DNA of 64,000 bases from Eubacteriaceae bacterium (GTDB lineage: Bacteria; Bacillota; Clostridia; Eubacteriales; Eubacteriaceae): the NCBI GenBank assembly GCA_030156895.1, contig JASGLP010000002.1:1-64000 (forward strand), in the 5' to 3' direction. Within the stretch, counting starts at the first letter, position 1. Each line of letters starts with the position of its first letter. Position numbers and translations under genes: made by a program. The notes below the pieces were generated by a model. That model had not been told where the DNA came from and made no database searches. It worked only from the letters and a program-made list of their open reading frames with translations. Below, piece by piece: positions 26,417 through 42,161 of this stretch.

Positions 26417-26528
26417 AAAAAAAACAGATATGTCACCATACCTGTTAAAGTTGCAACTGGCTGGCTTTCCATTTGGTTAAACCCCTATAGCTTTGCGTCC
26501 TTACCTTTCGATAAGTTTGCTGAATTTT
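26417..26528 (-). promoter_or_regulatory. c-di-GMP-I (GEMM-I) riboswitch with terminator
   Basis: Minus strand: GCAAACTTATCGAAAGGTAA, then GGACGCAAAGC, TATAGGGG, AACCAAATGG and GCCAGCCAGTTGC. These are the GEMM-I landmarks: the GAAA tetraloop, GGACGCAAAGC and the G(A)CCAGCCAG receptor side. Downstream a terminator pairs ACAGGTATG with CATATCTGT (26424-26445, one G-U) followed by eight T. The aptamer is complete. Whether c-di-GMP promotes or blocks termination is not obvious, because no clear antiterminator pairing was found by eye. It controls the secreted protein gene 130 bp further on. Confidence 0.9.
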
Positions 26529-26562
26529 ATTAAATTAATTGTAAATGATTGATATTATTTTT

Positions 26563-26725: not shown

Positions 26726-26801
26726 TGGCAGGGGCAGAAGGATTTGAACCCTCGGCACGTGGTTTTGGAGACCACTGCTCTACCAACTGAGCTATACCCC
26801 T
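26726..26801 (-). tRNA. tRNA-Trp (anticodon CCA)
   Basis: 76 nt with the CCA end encoded. Acceptor AGGGGTA pairs with TGCCCCT (one G-T); D-arm TAGCTCAGTTGGTAGAGCA; anticodon stem GTGGT/ACCAC around CTCCAAA, giving anticodon CCA; T-arm GAGGGTTCAAATCCTTC. A perfect promoter lies 18 bp upstream and a terminator follows. It stands alone, not in a tRNA cluster. Confidence 0.97.
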
Positions 26802-39535: not shown

Positions 39536-41614
39536 TTATTTTTTTGGTAATACCGCTTTTCTCGACAAATTAATACGTCCCTGATTATCGATTTCGACAA
39601 TTTTAACTGTCACTTCGTCTCCGATATTAACCACATCTTCTACTTTTTCAACGCGCTCATGAGCCAGTTTTGAGATGTGAATTAAACCATCTTTATCACC
39701 CGGTAAAGAAACAAAAGCTCCGAAATTCATAATTCTGACAACTTTACCAGTCAGCACTTCGCCAACTTCCAGTTCTCTAACAATATTTTCAATGATCTCT
39801 TTGACTCGATTAGCTGAAGCGGTGTCAACAGATGCAATAAAGACCTGGCCATCATCTTCAATATCGATTTTTACGCCGGTTTCATCAATAATTTTATTGA
39901 TAACTTTTCCGCCTGAACCAATCACGTCACGAATTTTTTCCGGCTTGATCTGCATTTTAATAATGCGCGGTGCATAAGGTGAAATTTCTGCCCTTGGTTC
40001 TGAAATTTCCGCATTCATAATTCCCAGAATGTGGAGTCTTCCAACTCTAGCCTGTTCCAATGCTTCGGTCAAAATAGCCTTGTTAATGCCGTTGATTTTG
40101 ATATCCATCTGAATAGCAGTAATCCCTTTTTCTGTACCGGCTACTTTAAAATCCATATCGCCCAGGAAGTCTTCCATCCCCTGAATATCAGACAGAATCG
40201 CAACATGCTCATCTTCTTTAATCAGCCCCATAGCAATCCCGGCAACTGGTGCCTTTAATGGCACACCTGCTGCTAATAAAGAAATTGTGCTGCCACAGAC
40301 AGAAGCCTGAGAAGTTGAACCATTTGAGCTTAATACTTCCGATACCACACGAATTGCATATGGAAAGTCTTCTTCTGATGGAATCACTGGTAGAAGCGCT
40401 CGCTCTGCCAAGGCGCCATGGCCGATTTCTCGACGTCCTGGACCTCGCGATGGTCTGGCTTCACCAACACTGTAAGCCGGGAAGTTATAATGATGCATAT
40501 AGCGTTTAGATTCCTCGTTGGATAAACCATCAAGAATCTGAACATCTCCCAGTACGCCTAAAGTAACCACTGATAAAACCTGAGTCTCACCGCGAGTAAA
40601 TAGGCCTGAACCATGCGGTCTGGCCAGATAATCAACTTTTGCGGAAATCGGTCGAATTTCATTCATTTTTCGATTATCCGGGCGAATACGATCAATTAAA
40701 ATTAATCGTCTGATCTCTTTCTTCACTAAGGAATTAAGCACCTCATCAATATCGCCGCCAAGTTCCGGATAAATTTCGATAAAATGTGCTTTAATCTCAG
40801 CTTTTTGGGCATCAATATTTTCCAGTCGTTCCAGTTTATCAACGGTATTCACCGCAATTTTAATTCGATCTCCAGCAAAGCTGTCGATTTCAGCTTTTAA
40901 CTCATCAGCTGGCAAATAAAGGGTGTATTCCTTCTTTTCAACGCCAACCGCAGCAATAATTTCTTCCTGAAAGGCGACAATTTTTTTAATTTCTTCGTGG
41001 GCTGTCAGGATCGCTTCCAGCATCACGTCTTCTGGTATTTCATTAGCGCCAGCTTCGACCATCATAATAGCATCTTTTGTTCCCGATACAACCAGACTCA
41101 GTTCACTCAATCCGCGCTGTTCTTCATTGGGATTAATAACGAACTGGCCATCAATATATCCCACCGCAACAGCTCCAGTTGGACCGTTAAAGGGAATATC
41201 AGAAATACTAAGGGCTATCGACGATCCGATCATCGCCGCAATTTCCGGCGCATTATCCTGATCCACTGACATGACAGTCGCCACAACCTGAACATCATTT
41301 CTAAAGCCTTTAGGAAATAATGGTCTAATTGGTCGGTCAATTAAGCGGGAATTTAAAATCGCTTTTTCTGTTGGCCGTCCTTCTCTTTTAATAAATCCAC
41401 CAGGGATTTTACCAACAGAGTATTGTTTTTCTTCATAATCAACGCTTAAAGGAAAAAAGTCCATTCCTTCACGGGGTTTTTTTGATGCTGAAGCGACAGC
41501 CAGAATTTCTGTTTCACCATATCGGATCATCGCTGAACCTTTTGCAAGTTGAGCAACCTCACCAATTTCCACCTTAAACGATCGACCTGCAATTTCTGTT
41601 TCAAATACGTTCAT
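39536..41614 (-). CDS. pnp: polyribonucleotide nucleotidyltransferase (PNPase)
   Basis: About 692-aa phosphorolytic 3'-5' exoribonuclease. Two RNase PH-like domains, [21 protein letters not shown] (first) and [54 protein letters not shown] (second, catalytic), then KH ([20 protein letters not shown]) and S1 domains. I favour the start [10 protein letters not shown] (41612-41614) because GTGAG is suitably spaced; the ATG seven codons upstream lacks a ribosome site. Downstream of the rpsO terminator and the inserted repeat. Confidence 0.96.
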
Positions 41615-41662
41615 GGGCATCTCACTTTCTATCAAATTTATTATTTAACCTAAATATTTTGA

Positions 41663-41688
41663 AAAAAAAGAGGCGGAATACTCCGCCC
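41663..41688 (-). terminator. rpsO terminator (distal hairpin copy)
   Basis: Minus strand: GGGCGGAGTATTCCGCCTC followed by eight T. The same 19-bp palindrome recurs at 41872-41890 next to rpsO, there without a T run on its 3' side. Confidence 0.8.
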
Positions 41689-41871
41689 CAGACTGAAGAC
41701 AAAGTTAATTCTGAATACCTGAGCACCGACAATTGGCTTTTCAGTTGTCCGCCTCGGGGCGAACAGTTGCTAGAAAATGCCTATAATTAGCGATTTCAAA
41801 TTGGGCAACTGTACGAATCCGCGCGCGGACTACGAAATCCAATTGGTCGGTGCGGGGTTTGTCTACACACT
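41689..41871 (-). mobile_element. structured MITE-like repeat, copy 2, inside the rpsO terminator
   Basis: 183 bp bounded by identical 19-bp copies (41670-41688 and 41872-41890) of the terminator palindrome, as if the element had inserted and duplicated its target. The ends form imperfect inverted repeats: AGTGTGTAGACAAA and AGACTGAAGACAAA, 11 of 14 matching. Inner stems: GCACCGAC-AATTGG (41723-41736) with CCAATTGGTCGGTGC (41839-41853), ACAGTTGC/GCAACTGT (41763-41770, 41805-41812), CGCC/GGCG and TCCGCGCGCGGA (41819-41830). No coding capacity. Related to the copy at 17274-17452. Confidence 0.65.
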
Positions 41872-41894
41872 GAGGCGGAATACTCCGCCCTCTT

Positions 41895-42161
41895 TTATTT
41901 TCTTAAGTTTAACTCTTTAATTAGTTCACGATATTTTAGAATATCTTTATTTTTTAAGTATGCCAGTAATCTTCGACGCTGCCCAACTAATTTAAGTAAA
42001 CCACGATTAGAATGATGATCCTTTTTGTGAATTTTTAAATGGCCATTCAAATCGTTAATACGTGCAGTTAATAATGCAATCTGCACTTCTGTGGAACCGC
42101 AGTCCCCTTCTTTTGCCTGAAACTTTTGGATAATTTCTGCTTTTTGTTCTTTTGTAATCAT
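41895..42161 (-). CDS. rpsO: 30S ribosomal protein S15
   Basis: 88 aa, full length: [10 protein letters not shown]-type N-terminus ([20 protein letters not shown]), [20 protein letters not shown] and the C-terminal [21 protein letters not shown]. Binds 16S rRNA in the central domain. It has its own extended -10 promoter and about a 75-nt leader, which may carry the S15 autoregulatory structure; I could not fold it confidently. Confidence 0.98.

Follow-up and report, generated by a model that had tools for sequence, protein, structure and literature searches.

In the window analyzed here, a stretch of 64,000 nucleotides from a Eubacteriaceae bacterium whose genus we take as Acetobacterium, the spacer between rpsO and pnp contains the terminator palindrome GAGGCGGAATACTCCGCCC in two exact copies (41670-41688 and 41872-41890, with a start-to-start spacing of 202) that enclose a short element (Table 1). 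The inner sides of both copies are free of A- or T-runs and the outer runs are intact, as a preliminary description of this DNA had noted. The same description gave the ends of the element as imperfect inverted repeats of 14 bp, and we indeed find CAGACTGAAGACAAA and CAGTGTGTAGACAAA to agree at 12 of 15 positions. It further proposed a 183-bp element with a 19-bp target duplication; insertion and repeat are both real, but symmetry with related insertion sequences (ISs), which run CAG...CTG, leads us to place the element at 41689-41872 (184 bp) and to set the duplication at 18 bp, the 19th duplicated base being a G common to the left flank and the last base of the element. The left palindrome copy folds into a hairpin as single-stranded DNA, and the 221-nt stretch including both palindromes folds far better than shuffled versions (z of -10.2 and -8.4 for the two strands).

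Table 1. Features of the rpsO-pnp spacer in the window.
Feature	Position	Strand	Comment
pnp (polynucleotide phosphorylase)	39536..41635	-	ORF listed at 699 aa; homologues beside a single palindrome in 15 relatives
Outer A-run (minus-strand U-tract of the terminator, in the direction of rpsO)	41662..41669	-	Read from sequence
Left copy of duplicated target hairpin	41671..41688		18 bp (19 with the shared G at 41670); exact direct repeat
MITE, CAG...CTG, without transposase	41689..41872	+	184 bp; at least 40 scored own-genome copies; orthologous site empty in relatives
Left terminal repeat CAGACTGAAGACAAAG	41689..41704	+	16 bp identical to left end of the multicopy IS of G014
Conserved structured core	41722..41855	+	Matched in 15 of the 19 genomes of the genus; pairs covary in an alignment of 28 rows
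Right terminal repeat (reverse complement CAGTGTGTAGACAAAC)	41857..41872	-	92 own-genome motif matches at up to 3 mismatches, 7 for the reversed control
Right copy of duplicated target hairpin	41873..41890		18 bp; exact direct repeat
Outer T-run (plus-strand U-tract of the terminator)	41893..41896	+	Read from sequence
rpsO	41895..42161	-	88-aa ORF; homologues beside a single palindrome in 15 relatives

The preliminary description suggested looking for an orthologue of this site without the element, and such empty sites are readily found. All 15 relatives whose rpsO-pnp spacer was fetched carry a single palindrome and no element there, including genome G012, which is the closest of them at both proteins (94% identity for RpsO and 99% over 120 residues for Pnp). 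Three further genomes outside these 15 (G002, G006, and G009) gave no match in the palindrome search. For two more copies of the element in the genome of the window, joining the left and right flanks into one query of 400 nt gave an uninterrupted match in G012 (query positions 2-387 and 4-400), and the second of these loci is also uninterrupted in G018 (14-400) and G017 (25-400); matches of any kind, most of them partial, were obtained in 3 and 17 of the 19 genus genomes including the own one. At the level of sequence, these comparisons demonstrate that the element inserted at a site with a single palindrome.

The element is far from unique in its own genome (G000). A first look gave 164 candidates, 40 of which were scored and showed at least 89% identity, and a broader collection of 80 loci yielded 69 copies with both ends and at least 50 nt of flanking sequence per side; 8 of the 92 right-end motifs, each with 3 mismatches, lie outside these 80 loci by our count. 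As judged from mechanically called open reading frames, the 27 copies that have 600 nt of sequence to either side are all located outside ORFs of at least 100 aa, and the 21 copies with such an ORF within 400 nt on both sides sit between co-directional (15) or convergent (6) but never between divergent ORFs. Pairwise identity among the 60 copies of 178-188 bp has a median of 86% and a maximum of 97%, so that the family is not the product of a single fresh burst. Three loci (L099, L108, and L111) hold longer forms of 262-265 bp with additional sequence in the core.

These copies made it possible to compare each left-flank suffix with the corresponding right-flank prefix, using shuffled flank pairs as null. 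No fewer than 64 of the 69 copies score at or above the 99th percentile of the shuffled pairs and 56 score above the shuffled maximum; among the remaining 13 some have weak repeats and several have no clear repeat. In the 56 clearest copies the duplication measures 16-34 bp and its length follows that of the hairpin at the insertion point (r = 0.71; Spearman 0.77 against the 3' foot), with the best right-flank hairpin starting 0-2 nt from the insertion point in 51 of them. The duplication ends at most 1 nt from a hairpin foot in 73% of these copies, compared with 26% when lengths are permuted (maximum 59%), and 60 of all 69 copies have a hairpin foot no more than 2 nt away from the insertion point, compared with 22 of 138 control stretches. 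A result on the other side comes from the older copies across the genus: of 32 core hits, which include some false ones, the automatic duplication test recognized both ends in 7, and only 4 scored at least 10. The preliminary description had asked whether further copies sit in terminators and share 19-bp duplications: there are dozens of copies and their targets are mostly terminator-like (50 of the 56 copies have an outer run of four or more T or A), yet their duplications vary in length. Its proposal of a nonautonomous mobile element aimed at terminator hairpins is supported, but the target is the palindrome itself. Six of the 56 copies have no such run, and the 19 bp that it had considered unusually long are just the length of the hairpin that happens to lie at the window locus. 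From these flanks, it seems to be the shape of the target rather than the enzyme that sets the length of the duplication, and we have hardly any doubt that a mobile element duplicating whole hairpins would account for the locus.

Following the DUF772 transposases of the genus led us to an IS of 1488 bp in genome G015 (locus L122) with the ends CAGACTGTC...GACAGTCTG and an intact 474-aa transposase of the IS1182 family (NF033551 at 362.5 bits for a cut-off of 270, with PF05598, PF13751, and PF01609 above their cut-offs). It is flanked by a duplicated 22-bp hairpin with one mismatch and represents the same insertion as locus L191 of A. wieringae DSM 1911, the two being reverse complements with 100% identical transposases; this insertion is our ground for taking the genus as Acetobacterium. 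Copies in G016 and G012 have broken frames, and the two hairpins that flank the G012 copy are different. An end of the L122 IS shares its first 16 bases with a more distant, genus-wide MITE, and 20 of 25 over the whole stretch compared. The IS was at first considered the partner of the window MITE and then dropped, its ends fitting the genus-wide MITE better and another IS fitting the window. This second IS is multicopy in the congener G014 and also occurs in G005, with its pieces largely at contig ends. Its left end agrees with the window MITE at 16 of 16 bases and its right end at 15 of the first 18, and its pieces, matched through L122 only, share 47-51% identity with the L122 transposase over short stretches; a degraded copy in G017 is above the PF05598 cut-off. 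All 6 right flanks examined in G014 begin with a hairpin, each of them different (by eye), and in three cases the right-flank hairpin recurs at a left end on another contig (L177/L280, L178/L281, and L173/L303), which we infer to be single insertions split by the assembler. Across the genus, all 15 loci scanned of the 20 that were returned, remnants included, have a hairpin whose end lies 0-3 nt ahead of the left end of the IS, a count made without a control.

Comparable searches in the own assembly, which is 85% complete, gave no match to the transposases of L122 and L229 at the thresholds used, and among its 11 loci with odd right ends none has a left end at the distance expected of a long autonomous copy. 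One of the 15 left ends with a hairpin before them, a remnant of about 40 bp, is present there with no transposase sequence beside it. The only DUF772 transposase found in this genome (L059) was rejected as partner on account of its ends (TAGGGCTT type), which mismatch those of the MITE. The transposase with matching ends that the preliminary description recommended searching for is found in G014, in an IS1182-like element split over contig ends, and an IS1182-like IS of this kind is likely the autonomous partner, as judged by its ends. Left-end-like remnants also lie near position 1501 in six relatives (L288-L293), behind very similar acccaggttt...aaacctgggttt hairpins; they may represent another family of MITEs or one old insertion common to these relatives.

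We file the window element as a MITE with IS1182-like ends and not as an IS1182 member, because its 184 bp hold no transposase. It is well below 500 bp with no ORF of at least 60 aa listed inside, it has terminal inverted repeats, target duplications, and multiple genomic copies, and it has its ends in common with an autonomous element, the partner residing in congener G014 and not in the own assembly. Like the prokaryotic MITEs described in PMC10969869, it is short, transposase-free, multicopy, intergenic, and strongly structured with inverted and direct repeats, but it differs from what is described there in that its direct repeats are whole hairpins of variable length and its core is conserved genus-wide. 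This core is strikingly conserved, and an alignment of 28 copies chosen from the genus (5 own, 2 from G012, and 21 others, some of them orthologous insertions) has 36 predicted pairs with 98.3% of cells paired. Eight of the pairs changed on both sides, amounting to 36 such cells compared with 9.0 in shuffles and 0-15 in slid versions, and the number of further pair types does not exceed the shuffles (14 versus 13.2; 200 of 500). This covariation is good, though not final, evidence of structure, given that related rows can exceed shuffles without any structure. On the element's plus strand, variation that keeps pairing involves 27 G-U cells as against 3 A-C or C-A cells, the latter being what would read as G-U on the other strand, and few events may underlie these G-U counts. 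In 10-nt bins of the own copies, the stems are more conserved (0.89-1.00) than the apical loop (0.76-0.84) and the stretch inside the left end (0.78), and some internal-loop bases of the core are invariant. Outside the genus, none of 21 other genomes of the family has a match to the core. The core may act as an RNA at gene ends, or its structure may be required for the element to move. Rfam gave no match at gathering score in the element (four sub-threshold ones with E of 0.067 to 4.4); elsewhere in the window, a c-di-GMP-I riboswitch aptamer and a tRNA gene, roughly 200 bp apart, share the minus strand (26449-26531 and 26729-26801).

Hairpin duplication extends to related ISs well beyond this genus. 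A contig scan with the L122 transposase retained 80 of 195 confirmed relatives, mostly from Clostridia with two metagenome-assembled genomes labelled otherwise, and the addition of L120 and L122 resulted in 82 loci, 59 of them with both ends recognized by motif. A clear duplication is present in 45 of these 59 rows, corresponding to 44 insertions because L122 and L191 are the same one. These duplications measure 18-41 bp, correlate very closely with hairpin length (r = 0.987, slope 0.97), and end at most 1 nt from a hairpin foot in 44 of the 45 rows compared with 15% for permuted lengths (maximum 38%). Among candidate end pairs the one with the best duplication score was taken, a choice that favors the finding of repeats and not their agreement with hairpin feet. 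In Chakrabartyella piscis, nine near-identical IS copies occupy nine different hairpins with duplications of 20 to 36 bp, which shows the palindrome to be the target and not a part of the IS. The other 14 rows with recognized ends show no matching repeats: by eye, 10 of them have complete hairpins on both sides that differ from each other (L120, L210, L213, L218, L221, L224, L225, L230, L237, and L243), possibly the product of recombination between IS copies, and at L234 and L236 the contig ends at once. In a phylogenetic tree, 29 hairpin-duplicating ISs fall on one side of a branch (97/98), a grouping that we do not use as evidence for a single origin because the sequences came from a similarity search with one query, 32 of them were picked by hand (three with ORFs below 400 aa were then dropped), and long branches were flagged.

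The genus also harbors a second IS1182-type group with GGGACC-GTGAAAA ends, found at five loci (L128, L129, L130, L134, and L144), that seems to insert mid-palindrome: L128 splits a perfect palindrome without any repeat, and L129, L134, and L144 have repeats of 7-9 bp. When 196 genomes were searched for more members of this group, 4 of them yielded 5 matches, none with clear ends of that type. The insertion model of PMC5678879 includes a "loop" pathway c to which this group may correspond.

The targeting of hairpins as such has precedents. IS1272 / TnSha1 of the IS1182 family in staphylococci is described to target hairpins, often terminators, with little preference for primary sequence and to remove the hairpin wholly or partly without target duplication (PMC4923244, PMC5678879). 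The elements studied here resemble it in their family, to which the MITE is linked by its partner IS, and in targeting hairpins without a fixed primary sequence; however, they keep and duplicate the hairpin, so that IS1272-type replacement as portrayed in these sources is not what we find. Closer to our observations is pathway b of the 2017 model in PMC5678879, where joining at the 5' feet of a stem-loop would hypothetically duplicate the whole of it. There it is only a drawn possibility, and the same pattern is seen here in 56 MITE copies and 44 IS insertions. ISPse1 (PMC3281130) and ISCaa15 (PMC3196728), both assigned to the IS1182 family in their authors' naming, are listed with 4-bp direct repeats in contrast to the hairpin-long repeats described above. 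For whole-hairpin duplication as a regular outcome, the open-access literature searched offered a hypothesis only, and an earlier report may exist in the central IS reviews, which lie outside that search. Within this scope, the targeting of hairpins by IS1182-family elements is already known, and the regular duplication of the whole hairpin is apparently new, with no printed example found.

Setting aside the form in which the palindrome is recognized, the window MITE was very probably mobilized by an IS1182-type DDE transposase that would target palindromes, usually intrinsic terminators, and leave the whole hairpin duplicated. An ordinary IS or MITE with a preference for terminators and a fixed long stagger of about 19 bp would satisfy the window copy by itself with its 18-19 bp, but the range of 16-34 bp among MITE copies and 18-41 bp among ISs, in step with hairpin length, contradicts such a stagger and leaves this explanation next to no probability. 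Hardly better are the prospects of a structured RNA or regulatory repeat that is no transposon and spreads between the terminators of gene ends by recombination. The genus-wide conservation and covariation of the core and the better preservation of its stems than of its loop would suit such a repeat, yet the copies sit in different local terminators, the sites of relatives are empty where tested, and the ends match those of an IS; empty sites together with duplicated targets make it hard to hold. We also regard it as improbable that a transposase of another family moved the window MITE and that its IS1182-like ends reflect coincidence or convergence. In favor of this idea, no IS1182-like partner was found in the own assembly, and the MITE core had no match in G014 and G005, the two genomes with the best-matching IS, but the agreement of the G014 IS at both ends and the same target behavior speak against it.

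How an IS1182-type transposase would recognize its target can be inferred from the position and length of the duplications, and on this basis we lean slightly toward a cruciform mechanism acting at the 5' feet. The target palindrome would extrude as a cruciform and the two 3' ends of the element would be joined at the two 5' feet of its hairpins. These feet adjoin each other across the four-way junction, so that the ordinary small spacing of active sites could give duplications of any length, and gap repair would then leave either side with the complete hairpin. Extruding palindromes this short as cruciforms is costly, and short terminator hairpins fold readily as single strands; an enzyme acting on a hairpin of single-stranded DNA, for instance in the lagging-strand template at a replication fork, may lead to the same outcome, and we consider this a serious though less probable alternative. 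It has to contend with the fact that duplicating a whole hairpin needs joining on both strands, which the four-way junction explains directly. More tentatively than the cruciform mechanism itself, we propose that a widespread IS1182-type group might read its stagger off the secondary structure of the target, that is, the 5' feet of two opposed hairpins at a four-way junction, and duplicate any palindrome whole, with the Acetobacterium MITE also carrying a structured RNA that has G-U pairs favoring one strand and its own role at gene ends.

The length of the target duplication is usually treated as a signature of the transposase family, and IS catalogues list very variable repeat lengths for IS1182. 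In the elements studied here this length looks like a property of the target, considering its slope near 1 against hairpin length over 18-41 bp, which also calls for caution with annotation tools that expect short and fixed repeats. Hairpin-long duplications can be seen as a genomic read-out of structure-guided transposition that provides natural examples of an outcome found so far only as a drawn model, and the elements that produce them form a testable system for the recognition of cruciforms or hairpins. Each outer hairpin retains the U-tract that belongs to it, and the insertion should therefore leave termination intact in either direction. Surviving termination would make terminators safe sites and a high copy number possible, and it would explain how dozens of gene ends can host the element and still terminate transcription.
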